A DNA stretch of 34,840 nt, taken from NCBI GenBank assembly GCA_017694555.1, contig JADIMS010000059.1, forward strand, positions 1-34,840, in the 5' to 3' direction. Shown here one piece after another: positions 20,898-34,756 of the stretch. The notes under the pieces were generated by a model. The model made no database searches and was not told the origin of the DNA. It saw nothing but the letters and a program-made list of their open reading frames with translations. Position numbers and translations under genes: made by a program. Within the stretch, counting starts at the first letter, position 1, and each line of letters begins with the position of its first letter. The stretch comes from Candidatus Avitreponema avistercoris. Its GTDB lineage: Bacteria; Spirochaetota; Spirochaetia; Treponematales; Treponemataceae.

Positions 20898-21327
20898 GCT
20901 TGCAGAAAAAAAGACTGAATACAGGCAGGTGTACCGGATAACGGACGGCGTATACGCCGCCTTCCAGTTTTGCTCGCGGGACTATAACCCGCTGCATACG
21001 GATCCGGCGTTTGCCGCTTCCCACGGCTTCGGGGAATGCGTGATGTACGGGAATATCCTGAATGCGTTTGTCTCGCATTTTGTCGGGATGGCGCTTCCTG
21101 TCCGTGATGTGATGATCCAGAAGCAGGAGCTGGCTTTTCACAAGCCTTGTTTTCTTGGAGATGAATTGACACTGTGTGCGCACGTGGACTTTGTTTCAGA
21201 AGCAGTCAATGTCCTTGCGTTTAAGTTGCGGTTTACACGAAACCGTGACGGAAAACCGGAAACAGTTGCCAAAGGTTCCGTGCAGATCGGCTTGCTGCGC
21301 GGCGCAGAGACAGAAGGGGGGGGGTAA
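20884..21327 (+). CDS. MaoC-like hot-dog dehydratase/hydratase
   Basis: FCSRDYNPLHTDPAFAASHGFGECVMYG matches the hydratase motif; overlaps the end of fkbH. Confidence 0.85.
   Translation: MTVSELAEKKTEYRQVYRITDGVYAAFQFCSRDYNPLHTDPAFAASHGFGECVMYGNILNAFVSHFVGMALPVRDVMIQKQELAFHKPCFLGDELTLCAHVDFVSEAVNVLAFKLRFTRNRDGKPETVAKGSVQIGLLRGAETEGGG
21316..21324 (+). repeat. Poly-G tract, G9
   Basis: GAA-GGG-GGG-GGG-TAA: final codons of the MaoC-like gene, immediately 5' of the TTG start of the SDR gene. Confidence 0.95.
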
Positions 21328-24236: not shown

Positions 24237-24776
24237 TTGCTTAGAGACTGTCTCCGGTTCGCAAGTACCTGCCGTTGGAATGGGAACCTATCTTCCTCCA
24301 CAGTTGCTGCCGTCTATGGTTTGCGCCGCATTCCTTATGGGATTTCTCCGCAATACGGTTATCACTGGACTCTTGCTGCCAGAATACTGAATAACAAGCC
24401 AATCATAAGGTGGAACGGCGGCATCAACCGCTGCAACATGATGCGCGTGGAAGATTTCGCTGTAGGGGCAGTCGGACTGATCGGTAATCCGTCCGCTTAT
24501 AATGAGGCATTCAACATTTGCGGCGACGAGACACCTTCTTTTAACGATGTGCTGGACTGCCTTTCGGAACTAACGGGAAAAATCGTAAAGACCGTAGACA
24601 TTGACAGCGCTTTTTATGCAAAGGAAGTGCCGAAAAGGGCAGGGGAAATCCTCGGCGGACGTTCCATCGACTCGATCAACAGTAATGAAAAAATAAAAGC
24701 AGCTGTTCCTTCGTATGTCATAGCGGACGGTAATCCGGCAGTACCTACCATGTATAACGTCTATTGGAAAGTCTAA
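24237..24776 (+). pseudogene. NAD-dependent epimerase remnant lacking the N-terminal Rossmann part
   Basis: C-terminal epimerase-like sequence (YGYHWTLAARILNNKPII...MRVEDFAVGAVGLIGNPSAYNEAFNICGDE) with no GxxGxxG domain and a poor N-terminus. Confidence 0.65.
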
Positions 24777-24811
24777 CCAACGAAGGTTGTTACTACAATT
24801 CTGCTTAAAAC

Positions 24812-26338
24812 ATGTTAGATAGCAAGCGCATAGCAAAGAATACGATATTCTTGTACTTCAGAATGATTCTGGTAATGGCGGTTGCATTATATACATCGAG
24901 AGTTGTTCTGGGCATATTGGGAGCTTCTGATTATGGTCTTTATAACGTAGTAGGCGGAGTCGTCACCATGTTCGCATTTGTTAATGGTGTCCTCAGCTCG
25001 GGAACATCAAGGTTTATTACTTACGAACTAGGCATGGGAGATGATGAGAAGCTAAGAGATATTTTTAATGTGGCGCTTGTTTCACATATTGGGTTAGCGT
25101 TTATTGTTTTTATTCTGGCGGAAAGTGCGGGGGTGTGGTTTATCAATACACAACTTGTGTTTCCTCCCGAGCGTACACTGGCAGTCAATGTGGTTTATCA
25201 GCTATCTGTCCTCACTTTGATGTTGCAGTTTACCCAATTGCCATATACCGCTACGATTATCGCCCACGAGAAAATGAATGTTTATGCTTATGTAGGGCTC
25301 CTTGACGTAGGTTTGAAACTGCTGATGATACTCTTGCTGAATCTCAATCGTTCGTTAGATAATCTTATTTTATACGCTATATTGATTTTCTGTGTTCAGG
25401 TTATCACGCTGGTTATATATCGAATTTATTGTTTGCGCCATTATCAGGAATCACATTGGCGATTAAGTAAAGATAAGCAAAAATATAAAGACATTTTCTC
25501 CTATGCGGGGTGGGATGTCATAGGATCTCTATGTGTTATTACTCAGGGACAAGGTGTTAACATTCTGCTTAATATTTATTTTGGGCCCGTTGTCAATGCG
25601 GCTCGTGCTATATGCTATCAGGTGGAGGGAGCCTTTAATCAATTGACAGGTAACTTTATGACGGCATTAACCCCTCAGATAGTCAAAAGTTATGCCAAAA
25701 ATGAGATAGATGACATGTTGGAACTTATCAAGGATGGCTCCAAATATGGTTTCTTCCTTTTGGCGGTTTTTTTGATACCTGTAATGTACAAGATAGACTA
25801 TGTTTTGAATCTGTGGTTGATAGATGTTCCGGCACAAACAGCTCTATTTGTTCTTATAATTCTAACTAATACTATGATTAGAGTGATAGCAAGGCCTGTG
25901 ATAAGCGGCGTGCATGCTACAGGTCGCATTAAACGACTTGATATATATGCAGGAGGCATAGGATTGATGCCGCTTCCGCTGATTTGGGTGCTTTTTGAGA
26001 AGGGTTTTGCCGCTCATTATGCTTTTTGGGTGATTTTGCTTTGGGGAGTTTTTGCTAATATAGCAGAGATCATTATCTTTAAGGTTGAATTGCCAGAATT
26101 TCAAGTGATAGATTATTGTATTTCAGTTTATGGCAGATGTTTTATAGTAGCGGCAGGCGTGTTGTTTATAGACAATATATTGCTGGACTTTTTCGCGAAT
26201 CAATTCCTGTCTGTTTGTTTGTATTTTGCTTTGACTTTTGCTTTAAATGCCTCGATAGTCTTCATGTTAGGATTTAATCGAAGACAGAGAGGAAAGATTT
26301 TAAATGTACTGTATGGTAGATTAAAACAATTATTATGA
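24812..26338 (+). CDS. Polysaccharide flippase (Wzx/MATE-like)
   Basis: 508 aa multi-TM protein beginning KRIAKNTIFLYFRMILVMAVALYTSRVVLGILGASDYGLYNVVGGVV, typical of capsule/O-antigen flippases. Confidence 0.88.
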   Translation: MLDSKRIAKNTIFLYFRMILVMAVALYTSRVVLGILGASDYGLYNVVGGVVTMFAFVNGVLSSGTSRFITYELGMGDDEKLRDIFNVALVSHIGLAFIVFILAESAGVWFINTQLVFPPERTLAVNVVYQLSVLTLMLQFTQLPYTATIIAHEKMNVYAYVGLLDVGLKLLMILLLNLNRSLDNLILYAILIFCVQVITLVIYRIYCLRHYQESHWRLSKDKQKYKDIFSYAGWDVIGSLCVITQGQGVNILLNIYFGPVVNAARAICYQVEGAFNQLTGNFMTALTPQIVKSYAKNEIDDMLELIKDGSKYGFFLLAVFLIPVMYKIDYVLNLWLIDVPAQTALFVLIILTNTMIRVIARPVISGVHATGRIKRLDIYAGGIGLMPLPLIWVLFEKGFAAHYAFWVILLWGVFANIAEIIIFKVELPEFQVIDYCISVYGRCFIVAAGVLFIDNILLDFFANQFLSVCLYFALTFALNASIVFMLGFNRRQRGKILNVLYGRLKQLL

Positions 26339-27180
26339 GAATTTCTGGAATCGATTTCCCATCTATAATGATGGGTACGTCTGTTTGTGATTATAAAGGC
26401 AACAGAAGAAGTTTGCTTAAAAAGGTTGAGGAGAGTATTCTCTTTTCGATTAAATCTGGTAAACTGGGCTACGATACTGCTCGTGATTATGGGAATGAGT
26501 CTATCTTAGGGAAGATTTTTTCTTCATTGATAAAGAAAGGAGAAATATCTCGAGAAGATTTATTTATAACTACCAAGGTGGGCAATAACCAACAAAGATT
26601 GGGTGATATACGCCATGAATTAGAGCTTTCACTAAAGGCTCTGCGATTAGACTACTTAGATTTATGGCTTCTCCACTGGCCTCTCCCCGGGCACTATCTT
26701 GATAATTGGAAACAAATGTGTGAGATCTATCAATCGGGTATGGTCAAAGCTATAGGAATCGCTAATTGTCGTGAGCGGCATATATTGGAAATGGAGAAGG
26801 CTAATGTAGTTCTGCCACATGTCATACAGATAGAATATCATCCATTCCGAACTGTGCCTCGAATGGTACAGATGTGTAAGGAGAGAAATATTCAATTGGA
26901 GGCCTACTCCGCAAATTGTCTCATGCTCCCATTCGTTCGCCATAATGATATCCTTACTTCACTGGCGAAGAAGTATTCTAGAACAGTTGGTCAGATTATA
27001 ATGCGATGGCATGTGCAGCAAGGAGTAATACCCATCTTTAGTTCATTTAATAAGGCTCACATTGCTGAGAATATCAATATTTTCGACTTTGAGTTAGAAG
27101 AATCTGATATGCAGAAAATTTTTAACTTGAATATAGACTATAAGTTCCATCCTGAATCATTAAATTGCTTTAGTTATTAA
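26335..27180 (+). CDS. Aldo/keto reductase
   Basis: GYDTARDYGNE, TTKVGNN, LDYLDLWLLHWPLP, KAIGIANC and LEAYSANC motifs. Confidence 0.9.
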   Translation: MRISGIDFPSIMMGTSVCDYKGNRRSLLKKVEESILFSIKSGKLGYDTARDYGNESILGKIFSSLIKKGEISREDLFITTKVGNNQQRLGDIRHELELSLKALRLDYLDLWLLHWPLPGHYLDNWKQMCEIYQSGMVKAIGIANCRERHILEMEKANVVLPHVIQIEYHPFRTVPRMVQMCKERNIQLEAYSANCLMLPFVRHNDILTSLAKKYSRTVGQIIMRWHVQQGVIPIFSSFNKAHIAENINIFDFELEESDMQKIFNLNIDYKFHPESLNCFSY

Positions 27181-27183
27181 AAT

Positions 27184-28239
27184 ATGAGAAAGAAATTATA
27201 TTTACTTGCCGCCATCGATTTGTTATTTATCATGGTAACGTTCTTTACTTGTTGGAAAATATCGTTGGCTCTAATCATTCTCTCTCTGCTAACAGGAATC
27301 TGTGGCCTATCTTTTCTCGTTCTCAACAAATTATTTAAGAAGACCAATTATTGGAAGAACCTGTTCGACTTTCAGAAGCGTTTTGTCTCCAATGAGGGGT
27401 ATCGTGATAATATCAGTCGTAATTACGATATCATAAACCTAGGTAGCAATCCCGCCATGTTCGCCTTCTTCTATGAGCAAGTGAGAGGGCAGAATTGGTC
27501 TACGGGATCGCAGGGGCTGTCAATGGATTTTGAGATACTGAAATATTTCCATAGTTACCTGAGAGATGGCGGCATAGTACTTATCCCTATCATGCCTTTT
27601 ACGGCTATTTCTCAGTATCTAAAGAATAAACCGGAGTATTGGTCCGATAATTATTATATGAAGTTTGCCAGCATCTTGGATGGCTATCAAGCTAATCACC
27701 TGAATGGAGCTAAAAATTATCTTCTCATGTTGAAGTGTCCGCTGCTCTATAATATAAAGGGCATAAAATACCTGTTTCATGACGTAGAAAGAGATCATCG
27801 GTTGGAGATAGCCGAGCAACCGATGCAGGCTCTTGATATGGAACAGGATGCAAGATTGTGCATACAGAGTTGGATGAAAGAGTTTGATGTCACTGACATG
27901 GAGGCTTTCTATAGCGATAAGTTTGCTGAATATTATGAAGAAGGGACGCAGATACTGCGTGATATGATAAACTATTGTTTGGAGCGTAACTATAAACCCG
28001 TCATCATAACCATCCCTATGACTTCATATCTTGGAGAAATGTTTAACGAGGAGTTCCGCCAAAAAATGGTGAAGGATTTTGTCTCTAAAGCTAATGAGAA
28101 AGATGTCCTGTTCTTGGATTACTGGAACCAAAGAGTATTCACAGATAGTTCACTCTATTTTAATTCCTTCTACTTTAACCTGCGAGGAAGGAAATTATTC
28201 ACGGCTCAAGTACTGAAAGAATTGGGGCTAATGAGCTGA
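27184..28239 (+). CDS. Membrane-anchored SGNH-like protein of unknown function
   Basis: Two N-terminal TM segments, then IINLGSNPAMFAFFYE and a C-terminal FYFNLRGRKLFTAQVL block reminiscent of SGNH/DltD-like proteins. Confidence 0.5.
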   Translation: MRKKLYLLAAIDLLFIMVTFFTCWKISLALIILSLLTGICGLSFLVLNKLFKKTNYWKNLFDFQKRFVSNEGYRDNISRNYDIINLGSNPAMFAFFYEQVRGQNWSTGSQGLSMDFEILKYFHSYLRDGGIVLIPIMPFTAISQYLKNKPEYWSDNYYMKFASILDGYQANHLNGAKNYLLMLKCPLLYNIKGIKYLFHDVERDHRLEIAEQPMQALDMEQDARLCIQSWMKEFDVTDMEAFYSDKFAEYYEEGTQILRDMINYCLERNYKPVIITIPMTSYLGEMFNEEFRQKMVKDFVSKANEKDVLFLDYWNQRVFTDSSLYFNSFYFNLRGRKLFTAQVLKELGLMS

Positions 28240-28329
28240 GAGAATTCATAACTATCTATAGATGTGTAATGGCTCCCTTGTCATATTTTGACATTATATA
28301 GCATCTGGTTTGTTTTTATTCGATTTTAA

Positions 28330-29088
28330 AATGAAAAACTCAATGCTGGACATTACGGAAACAAATTGCTTGGTTGTTTCGCCGCTATGCAGATTGACGG
28401 GGTCGTGCATTTGGCAGCTTTTCAAGCTTTTTCTCCGGAAGAAGGAGAAATAAAAGATTTGGTGCTTTCTAATATTTGGCTTGGAACTGCGCTTCTTGAG
28501 GCTTGTAAAAAAGCTGACGTTAAATGGTTTTTAAATACAGGAACTATATGGCAAAATTACCAGTCTCCGGATTTTTTAGATGTATATAATCCGGTAAATC
28601 TTTATGCAGCGTCTAAGCAGGCTTTCCTTTCCATGGCCAAATATTATACTGAGACCTCTTCAATTCGATTTTGTACTTTAAAACTTTGTGATACATATGG
28701 TCCTGGGGATACAAGAAAGAAAATTTTATCACTATTTGATGAAGCCCGTCAGACCGGATGTAGGCTTGATTTGACCCCCGGTAAACAACAAATCGATCTG
28801 CTCCACATTAATGATGTTGTTTCCGGGTTTGTCCGTTTGACTGCAATTCTTGCGGATCAAGAATTTCCGGTTTGTCCAGAATATGTTTTGTCTTCGGGAA
28901 AAAGAATTTCTTTAAGAAATCTGGCTGTTCTTTATGAGAAGAAATATCATACAAAATTGAATATCTGTTGGGGTGCTATCCCTTACCGGGAACGTACTGT
29001 TATGATTCCGTATAAGGGTAATATTCTGCCCGGATGGTCGCCGATTATAACAGAGGAGGATTTGTACGGAGATGAAATCCCGTCTTGA
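28330..29088 (+). pseudogene. NAD-dependent epimerase/dehydratase lacking the N-terminal Rossmann motif
   Basis: In-frame stop at 28327; sequence begins within the domain (GVVHLAAFQAF...NPVNLYAASKQAF...LCDTYGPGD...LLHINDVVSGF). Confidence 0.65.
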
Positions 29089-30091
29089 ATATTACGACTT
29101 TCTGCGCGGTGTCGCGGTGATCATGGTTGTTGCGATACACACGTTTGGCGTTGTGTACATAGATGAAACGCTGACGCTTGCCGGCATATTTGTGCGCGAA
29201 CTTCTGAACTGCGCGGTGCCGCTGTTCTGTGTGTCGAGCGCGTTTTTTCTCATCAATAAGAATACAGGAAATTACAAGATGTATCTTGTGCCGCATATAC
29301 TGCGCGTGTGGATACCGCTTTTGGTGTATTCGTTTCCGTGGTTCGCGTATGACGTCTGGAAAAACGGCGCTGGCCTTACGGGTGTGCTGAAGCTGATTGG
29401 GGGGGGGTATAGCGTCTATTACTTTGCCGCGGTAATCCTTCAGTTTTATGTTCTGCTGCCGCTGTTCCAGAAATATAAAATCTTTCGGAATGTGCCTGTG
29501 ATGTGTTTGATCTCGCTGCTGTGGGTAGCGGGATATATTTACATTGTCTATCCAGAGTATTCGCAGCTTCCGCTTTTGGCATATGGCGGCGTGATCTTGT
29601 GTTGGCTTGTGTATTTTGCGCTGGGAGCTGCCTTTATGAAAGACGGAATAAAAAGCCGTGTTTCTGTCCGCCTGTGTCTTGCAGGCAGTATCGCGGCGCT
29701 TGCATTGAGCTTTGCCGAATGTATCTTCTTGCGCGAAAAACCTGGCGCGTTGCCATTTGATGGAATCGGACTAAAGCCCTCTGCGGTTCTGTTTGCCGTT
29801 TGCGTATGTGCCTTGCTGTATTCTGACCGGTGTGCGCAGCTATACCGGCGCGACGCTGTCCGGCGGTTTATTGCCTGCCTGGGGCGATTCAGTTATGGTA
29901 TGTATCTTGCTCATATGTATGTGCTGTGGGCAGGCGGAAAAATTCTTGCATTCACAGGATTCGGGTTCCCGGGGATAAAGCTGTTGTGGTGGGCGGCGTA
30001 TACCGCAGTTGTCGCGTGCATAACGTTCGCTCTCCTTTCCCTTGTAAAGAGAATCAGTCCGGAAATTTCCAAAGTGTTTTTTGGTGTATAG
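29072..30091 (+). CDS. Acyltransferase family 3 membrane protein
   Basis: YDFLRGVAVIMVVAIHTFG N-terminus and multiple TM segments; intact frame requires the G9 tract at 29399-29407. Confidence 0.88.
   Translation: MKSRLEYYDFLRGVAVIMVVAIHTFGVVYIDETLTLAGIFVRELLNCAVPLFCVSSAFFLINKNTGNYKMYLVPHILRVWIPLLVYSFPWFAYDVWKNGAGLTGVLKLIGGGYSVYYFAAVILQFYVLLPLFQKYKIFRNVPVMCLISLLWVAGYIYIVYPEYSQLPLLAYGGVILCWLVYFALGAAFMKDGIKSRVSVRLCLAGSIAALALSFAECIFLREKPGALPFDGIGLKPSAVLFAVCVCALLYSDRCAQLYRRDAVRRFIACLGRFSYGMYLAHMYVLWAGGKILAFTGFGFPGIKLLWWAAYTAVVACITFALLSLVKRISPEISKVFFGV
29399..29407 (+). repeat. Poly-G tract, G9, inside the acyltransferase gene
   Basis: ATT-GGG-GGG-GGG-TAT; one extra G gives GTA-TAG (immediate stop). 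Confidence 0.95.
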
Positions 30092-30094
30092 AAA

Positions 30095-31240
30095 ATGAAA
30101 ATCGGTATTCTTACCTTCTGGTGGTCCGCTGACAATTACGGGCAGCTTTTGCAGGCGTACGCGCTGCAAGCCTACTTGCGCGGGCAGGGGCACGACGCGT
30201 ACCTAATCCGCTACAAATGGGAAAAGGACTTTACGCCGTCGCCGCTTGCGCTTCGCCTCCTGAAGGCGTGCAATCCCGTTTTGCTGTTCCGCTTTTTCAG
30301 CGCGCGGCGCAGAATTCGCGCGGCGAAACAAGAGCAAGCCGCGTTTGACCGCGGATTCGACGCGTTCCGCGACCGGTACATCGCGCAAAGCCCGCGCGTT
30401 TACAACTCTTGGACGGAACTTCGCGAAGACCCGCCGCAAGCCGATTGCTACATTGTTGGCAGCGACCAAGTTTGGAATTTCGGCGCCATTCCGCTCGCGC
30501 GCTGCCGATCTGCCGTGCACGCGTACTTTTTGGATTTCGGCAAACCTGAAACCGTGCGCCTTTCGTACGCGGCAAGCTGGGGACGCGTAACGCTCCCGGA
30601 TGAATACGCGCGGGAAATCGCGCCGCTTCTTTCGCGCTTCCGGTACGTTTCCGTGCGGGAAGAAAGCGGCGTTTCGCTTTGCGTGCAATGCGGCTTTCCC
30701 GGTGCGCGCTGGGTGCGAGACCCGACGCTGTTGTTGGACGCTGAGGCGTGGCGCGCGCTCTATAAAGAAAACGAATTGCGCGAGCCAACCGGGCGCTATC
30801 TTTTTCTTTACATGCTCGGAAATGAATGCGAATTTGATATTGAAACTGTCTATCGTTTCGCGCGCGAGCGGAATCTTCAAGTTGTCTACGTGACGGGCAA
30901 CAGCGTTGTTGACCGCAGAGAGAAATGGTTCGCCACGATTCCGGAGTGGCTCGCTCTTGTCGATCACGCGGAGTATGTCGTGACGAACAGCTTTCACTGC
31001 TGCGTGTTCAGCGTCTTGTTTGAAAAGCGCTTCGCCGTGATCCCGCTGAAAGGCGCGGCCGGCGGAATGAACGCGCGCATGGATTCGCTCTTTGAATTAT
31101 TCCGGATGAAGCCGCGTTGGCTGCGCGGGGACTTTTCTGTGCTGGAGAGCGAGGCGGATGCCCGCGTGCCGGACACGTTCCGGTTTGATTTACAAGAAGC
31201 GCTCGGCGAAACGAGCGAAGGGACGCGCGAAAGCCGTTAA
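30095..31240 (+). CDS. Polysaccharide pyruvyl transferase family protein
   Basis: IGILTFWWSADNYGQLLQAYALQAYLRGQGHDAYLIRY, YIVGSDQVWN and VTNSFHCCVFSVLF. Confidence 0.92.
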   Translation: MKIGILTFWWSADNYGQLLQAYALQAYLRGQGHDAYLIRYKWEKDFTPSPLALRLLKACNPVLLFRFFSARRRIRAAKQEQAAFDRGFDAFRDRYIAQSPRVYNSWTELREDPPQADCYIVGSDQVWNFGAIPLARCRSAVHAYFLDFGKPETVRLSYAASWGRVTLPDEYAREIAPLLSRFRYVSVREESGVSLCVQCGFPGARWVRDPTLLLDAEAWRALYKENELREPTGRYLFLYMLGNECEFDIETVYRFARERNLQVVYVTGNSVVDRREKWFATIPEWLALVDHAEYVVTNSFHCCVFSVLFEKRFAVIPLKGAAGGMNARMDSLFELFRMKPRWLRGDFSVLESEADARVPDTFRFDLQEALGETSEGTRESR

Positions 31241-33702: not shown

Positions 33703-34461
33703 ATGGCTGAAACAGGACAAAAAGCTTTACCGAAAATCAGCATTATCGTGCCGGTATACAATACCGCGCGTTACCTTGCCCGCTGCCTTGACAGCATCGC
33801 GGCGCAGACGTTCACTGACTGGGAGTGCATCTGCGTGGACGACGGATCGCCGGACGCGAGCGGCGCAATCCTTGACGAGTACGCGGCAAAAGACAGCCGC
33901 TTTGTCGTGCTGCATCAGGAGAACGGCGGCGTAAGCCGCGCACGGAACGCCGGCCTTGACGTGGCGCGGGGAGAGTGGATCGCGTTTGTGGACAGCGATG
34001 ACTGGGTGGAGCCTGAAACGTTCGCGCTTGCCCATGAGGCCGCCGCCGCGCACAACGCGGATTTGGTGCAGTGGGATTATGTGTTTGAGGACAACGGGAA
34101 ACGGATCGTCGGGCTTTCCTTGGCGGAAGGGCCGTTTTCTGTTTCGAAGAATGCCACATACTTTTGTCCAAGTATGTGTCATAAATTAGTTTTAAGAAAA
34201 CTAATTTATGACAATCATTTGTTATTTCCGGAAAACATCCGCCTTTCGGAAGACCGCCTGTTTTCGTTTCAGTGCAGCTTGATCGCGCGCCGCGCCTTCC
34301 ATTTGAATCGCGCGCTTTATCACTATACGGCGAACGCGTCTTCTGCGAGCCACAATATGACGCGCGAAATGATTTTGGAAGAAGTGGAGGTTGTGAAAGA
34401 GATGGAGCGGTTCTCTCTCGATTTTGAACGCAACGCCGTCCTGAGCGGGGGGGGGGTATGA
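33703..34461 (+). CDS. Family 2 glycosyltransferase, out of frame at a G10 tract
   Basis: ISIIVPVYNTARYLARCLDSIAAQTFTDWECICVDDGSPD...FVDSDDWVEP. Stops at TGA 34459-34461; removing one G extends the frame to TAA 34694-34696. Confidence 0.9.
   Translation: MAETGQKALPKISIIVPVYNTARYLARCLDSIAAQTFTDWECICVDDGSPDASGAILDEYAAKDSRFVVLHQENGGVSRARNAGLDVARGEWIAFVDSDDWVEPETFALAHEAAAAHNADLVQWDYVFEDNGKRIVGLSLAEGPFSVSKNATYFCPSMCHKLVLRKLIYDNHLLFPENIRLSEDRLFSFQCSLIARRAFHLNRALYHYTANASSASHNMTREMILEEVEVVKEMERFSLDFERNAVLSGGGV
34178..34212. repeat. Perfect 16-bp inverted repeat with 3-nt loop inside the GT2 gene
   Basis: GTCATAAATTAGTTTT-AAG-AAAACTAATTTATGAC. Confidence 0.95.
34447..34456 (+). repeat. Poly-G tract, G10, inside the GT2 gene
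   Basis: AGC-GGG-GGG-GGG-GTA-TGA as read in the GT2 frame. Confidence 0.95.
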
Positions 34462-34756
34462 CGGCGCCCCGCTTCTTTTCGCGCAGAAGCTTGAGCCGAA
34501 GCTGCATGCGCTGCTCGGTTTGCTGGAACCGGACGCGAATCTTTGCCGCGCGGTGTTCCCGGAAACAAACCGTAAGCTCTTCGGCAATTTCCTGCGCAAG
34601 AAGACGCGGTCTGCTTTCCTGCTGCTGCTTGCCGCCCTGCGCATGGATTTCCTTGTGCGTCTCGCGGTTCAAGTCCGCAAGGTGTTCATGGCGTAACGCC
34701 GCAGAGAATGCCCGCGCCCGAACGACGCGCTTTGATTTTGAAGCGGGGCGCGCGGC

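Follow-up and report, generated by a model that had tools for sequence, protein, structure and literature searches.

Slipped-strand phase variation is an established mechanism, already known from Campylobacter, Neisseria, Haemophilus and the promoters of Treponema pallidum. In C. jejuni, 52% of the poly-G tracts are nine bases long and 30% are ten (PMC6321876). T. pallidum, which belongs to the same family as the bacterium studied here, has poly-G tracts of 7–11 bases at the tpr genes and tp0126, and their variation in length has been proven in vivo (PMC7864442). Switching of acyltransferase-3 (AT3) enzymes has also been described: on/off switching of the AT3 gene oafA of H. influenzae alters the O-acetylation of a surface glycan, and we liken the gene reported below to it, while Salmonella oafB provides phase-variable AT3 O-acetylation by another mechanism (PMC9558356).

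We analysed a stretch of 34,840 nucleotides (hereafter the window) from contig JADIMS010000059.1 of Candidatus Avitreponema avistercoris (assembly GCA_017694555.1), together with the rest of this 1.87 Mb draft genome, which is 80% complete, and other genomes of the Treponemataceae.

An in-frame G9 tract in an AT3 gene

The first-pass annotation of the window had proposed a 339-residue acyltransferase whose open frame requires a run of nine Gs, and both the identity of the protein and the dependence on G9 were borne out. The features concerned are:

29072–30091, + strand: AT3-only acyltransferase gene, 339 aa, ATG start, ON at G9 (open reading frame; PF01757, E 1.6e-25; R12-X10-H23; AF2 model)
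29399–29407, + strand: putative G9 contingency tract encoding Gly110–112, before TM helix 4 (frame arithmetic; AF2 model; G10 in the orthologue of genome G003)
30095–31240, + strand: polysaccharide pyruvyl transferase gene, separated by 3 bases from the AT3 gene before it (PF04230, E 4.8e-32)

The match to PF01757 spans residues 6–321 of the protein and positions 2–324 of the 326 in the profile. The R-X10-H motif, absolutely conserved in AT3 proteins and located in TM helix 1 (PMC9833829), is represented by R12 and H23 in helix 1, both invariant in the AT3 alignment. At the RXXR position, on the cytoplasmic face of TM helix 3, there is a single invariant arginine, R78 (HILR), rather than two. 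AT3 proteins have a 10-helix membrane fold; the AF2 model here, built on a shallow alignment, is all-helical (pTM 0.73, pLDDT 69), and the best plausible matches in a PDB fold search were to HGSNAT, with probabilities up to 0.94 and non-significant E values above 0.2. Together, profile and motif support the prediction that the frame encodes an AT3 protein. We infer that its acceptor is a glycan, to which it would probably transfer an acetyl group.

The tract consists of exactly nine Gs, with ATT on one side and TAT on the other, and in the AF2 model Gly110–112 form the link between a short helix (101–109) and the helix at 116–134. Frame arithmetic gave the full protein for G9 and kept the frame open for G6 and G12, while G7 reads GGV and then a stop. 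It also confirmed the products anticipated for single slips, GGGV followed by a stop for G10 and GGGIASITLPR followed by a stop for G8. As the first-pass annotation had supposed, truncation would come before most of the TM segments, the G8 and G10 products keeping about three helices according to the model. The gene thus carries an in-frame homopolymer of at least eight bases with both other frames truncated, as is required of an SSR phase-variable gene.

The order AT3–pyruvyl transferase is common to the window and to the loci of the nearest named relatives of the AT3 gene, which are uncultured Treponema isolate RUG314 (L052), probably of rumen origin to judge from the isolate name, and Spirochaetaceae MAG RGIG8712 from water-deer colon (L053). 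These relatives make it most likely that the bacterium is a family member of gut type. The two genes are likely co-transcribed, and a frameshift in the first may act polarly on the second.

Long G runs in the window, genome and family

Exact run lengths across the whole genome were distributed as follows: G6, 90; G7, 1; G8, 6; G9, 8; G10, 9; G12, 1; G14, 1. A single G7 run thus stands against 19 runs of at least nine, and in the window G runs reach five and then do not recur until nine. With G7 all but missing and a second group of runs spanning G8 to G14, the long runs stand apart as a class of their own, which is a hallmark of contingency tracts; the dominance of G9 and G10 resembles the poly-G spectrum of C. 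jejuni (PMC6321876). Further features of the window are:

21316–21324, + strand: G9 tract in the 3' end of a MaoC-like gene (PF01575), followed directly by the stop TAA of that gene and the TTG at which an SDR gene (PF00106) starts, GGGGGGGGGTAATTG
24812–26338, + strand: membrane protein of 508 aa and a probable polysaccharide flippase, judged only by the appearance of its sequence, which gives context for a surface-glycan cluster
33703–34696, + strand: family 2 glycosyltransferase (GT2) gene, OFF (PF00535; matches an open reading frame of genome G015)
34447–34456, + strand: putative G10 contingency tract in the GT2 gene, for which ON would be G9 or G12 (frame arithmetic)

The GT2 frame is stopped after its tract, at 252 aa, the final 79 codons being out of frame with the rest. 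In G015 a single uninterrupted frame matches both parts, with 59% identity over 229 aa and 36% over 50 aa, and a family-wide search with the C-terminal part found one relative only. This G10 run is a candidate second switch in the window, which would be OFF at present. At the MaoC-like/SDR junction, G10 would lengthen the MaoC-like protein by about 55 aa and abolish the stop/start arrangement, so length changes there could alter translational coupling of the two genes. The 508 aa membrane protein had no Pfam match at 1e-3. GC content drops from 55% in the surroundings to 38% at about 25–29 kb, and the epimerase gene at 28366–29088 lacks the start of its profile (matching 60–224 of 240); by these two signs, 24237–29088 has the look of an acquired, partly decayed surface-glycan island.

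Other runs in the genome lie in a variety of settings. On contig C89 (G000:C89; L041 4344–4355), a WecA-like glycosyltransferase family 4 gene (PF00953) is preceded by a G12 run that sits between TTGACA and TAGAAT, at a spacing of 20, and might act as a promoter switch where glycan synthesis begins. Tracts on C38 and C68 are flanked in a comparable way (TTGACA..TAAACT), and all three promoter-spacer tracts are arranged as reported for T. pallidum tp0126 (PMC7864442). A G10 run on C41 (G000:C41:6249-6258; L044 minus strand, reverse-complement 1881–1890) stands 17 bases upstream of an N6/N4 DNA methylase gene (PF01555), counted from its ATG; G11 would bring an upstream ATG into frame, making this a candidate phase-variable methyltransferase. 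On C4 (G000:C4; L039 4215–4224), G10 follows closely on the Cys of what is likely a lipoprotein signal sequence and is now out of frame, and G8 or G11 would restore the frame. Several runs in G015 likewise stand just before a lipobox-like stretch, and that genome also has a recurring promoter-like unit on the C strand, TTGACAnTA-C9-GT..TATA, with the run in the spacer (L058, L060, L063, L069). The starts of contigs C31 and C67 (G000; L035, L036) are almost alike for 160 bases past a run that differs in length between them (G9 against G10), beyond which they part; this could reflect either a gene end that is repeated or strain variants at the tract.

TA comes after runs of at least G8 much more often than expected, in several reading frames and in promoters, both in this genome and across the family. 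For runs of exactly G9, TA followed in 78 of 179 cases in the family compared with 16 of 182 in sister families and 18 of 179 in the reverse control; genome G007 is an exception (0/30). The idea that this TA is always part of a -10 element was rejected, because coding runs in several reading frames have it after them too. A tentative and rather doubtful extension is that host-associated Treponemataceae share a genome-wide poly-G phasome with a common DNA signature, at least G8 and then TA, which would suggest one lineage-specific process creating or maintaining the runs, with AT3 genes as a recurrent target.

AT3 tracts in the genome and its relatives

Exactly three genes in the genome pass the family cut-off for AT3, and each contains a tract:

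Window gene: G9, ON
Contig C68 gene: G9 at C68:15061, ON
Contig C115 gene: G10 at C115:26381, OFF

Tract lengths here and in the comparisons below are one consensus per MAG, with one genome per species, and homopolymer calls at G9–G10 may err by one. The C115 gene and its orthologue in the sister species G001 are 92.9% identical over 1179 bp, with 83 mismatches and a single gap. That sole indel falls in the tract, G10 here and G9 in G001. The gene is OFF in both species, with the protein 90% identical and the remainder of the gene open. Conservation of an OFF gene in two species, with no other indel, implies that it is still under constraint and speaks against decay. G015 has a counterpart of the C68 gene whose two halves show 44% and 43% identity; its G9 tract lies almost at the corresponding position and leaves that gene OFF.

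The window AT3 orthologue is present in only four of 274 family genomes. The first-pass annotation had named invariant mixed glycine codons among homologues as evidence against a switch; what we found in G003, a member of another genus, is G10 at the very codons of the window G9, with the gene frameshifted. By BLAST, the G003 protein is divided at the run into two intact frames, with 48% and 53% identity to the window protein; the site differs in tract length between related genomes, G9 against G10. Outside the run, 51% of residues, 57% of bases and 18 of 51 fourfold sites are alike. Since synonymous sites are nearly randomised and GGG is rare in G003 genes (8.5% of Gly codons in those sampled, compared with 23% in the window), the G003 run has probably been maintained and not merely inherited. 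The adjoining G003 pyruvyl transferase gene is, by eye, a decayed remnant. Orthologues in G213 and G269 have other residues at the site (TTC TGT GGC and AGT TGT TCC), showing that the tract is not required; that of G269 has an independent in-frame G10 near its C-terminus. Elsewhere in the family, AT3 genes carry tracts at other positions (L071, L091, L102, L127, L131). Of 52 sampled family AT3 loci, 5 carried tracts, a rate of 10% that is not unbiased, as the sample was mostly high-scoring intact genes to which L071 was added as a known tract carrier.

Phase variation weighed against alternatives and known systems

Slipped-strand phase variation of a surface-glycan modification best explains the tract in the window AT3 gene, with a probability that we put at roughly 0.85. 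Mispairing at replication would lengthen or shorten the run, which lies between membrane helices three and four. With G9 (or G6 or G12) the full multi-helix protein would be made and the surface polysaccharide acylated, probably acetylated; at G8 or G10 translation would stop within about 12 codons, leaving about three helices and no acylation, until a reverse slip restored it. With tracts in three AT3 genes, a glycosyltransferase, a lipoprotein and several promoters, such slips could generate combinatorial surface-glycan states. Switching would be expected within one population, and its benefit may be evasion of phage or of immunity.

The run might instead be a stable, neutral by-product of three adjacent glycines and GC-rich codon use. 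At the 23% share of GGG in the window, three in a row would arise in about 1% of cases, and a dinucleotide shuffle of the window alone gave no significant excess of runs of at least seven (10 matches against 6.35 expected), a result counted in favour of neutrality even though we dropped this shuffle as a test of chance because it is blind to the avoidance of G7 runs in the genome. A synonymous codon shuffle of the AT3 gene, however, produced a run of at least nine in only 11 of 1000 trials, and neutrality also has to contend with the gap at G7 below 19 long runs, the persistence of the run in G003 despite rare GGG and scrambled synonymous sites, and the presence of tracts in all three AT3 genes of the genome. 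We regard it as extremely improbable. Little more credible is the view that no switching occurs and that the out-of-frame genes (G003 AT3, C115 AT3 and window GT2) reflect ordinary pseudogenes or errors of assembly. These are MAG consensus sequences, homopolymers are error-prone, and G003 has also lost its pyruvyl transferase; but the lesion lies at the run each time between frames that are intact and conserved, and the C115 gene, OFF in both sister species, retains 90% protein identity without another indel.

Long homopolymers are slippery sites, and RNA polymerase or the ribosome might slip on poly-G to give a mixture of full and truncated protein, so that tract length would tune dose rather than act as an on/off switch. 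We consider this unlikely as the main role of the run, given the stops 4–12 codons on in both wrong frames and the length changes seen between relatives at the DNA level. Within the phase-variation reading, such slippage could nevertheless leave the OFF state leaky.

Poly-G switches are known and switchable AT3 enzymes are known; their combination in a non-pallidum Treponema appears to be undescribed, and an open-access literature search found no paper joining Treponema, phase variation and AT3. Apparently new are the tracts in every AT3 gene of one genome, with counterparts across genera. The H. influenzae oafA repeat is reportedly a tetranucleotide, and the acceptor of that enzyme is known (LOS heptose), whereas the window AT3 has a predicted glycan acceptor. 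With the Oac/OafB-type O-antigen acetyltransferases the window protein has in common the AT3 domain, R-X10-H and predicted membrane helices, but it has no SGNH domain (being AT3-only, like Oac) and RXXR is not present as such (PMC9833829).

Like the tracts studied here, the poly-G contingency genes of C. jejuni have intragenic runs, mostly G9 or G10, with frameshifted OFF states and many in genes for surface structures; they belong to a different phylum, and here several tracts sit in AT3 acyltransferases (PMC6321876). In T. pallidum the tracts act in the promoters of outer-membrane proteins, whereas the window tract would act in translation of a putative glycan-modifying enzyme (PMC7864442). 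Poly-G switching in treponemes has been known mainly from those outer-membrane protein promoters of the syphilis agent. An uncultured, probably gut-living relative has intragenic tracts in all of its AT3 genes and in a glycosyltransferase, and counterparts in other genera in different states suggest that switching of surface glycans is general in the family; if so, this would bear on resistance to phage, recognition by the immune system and the typing of strains in the rumen and gut.
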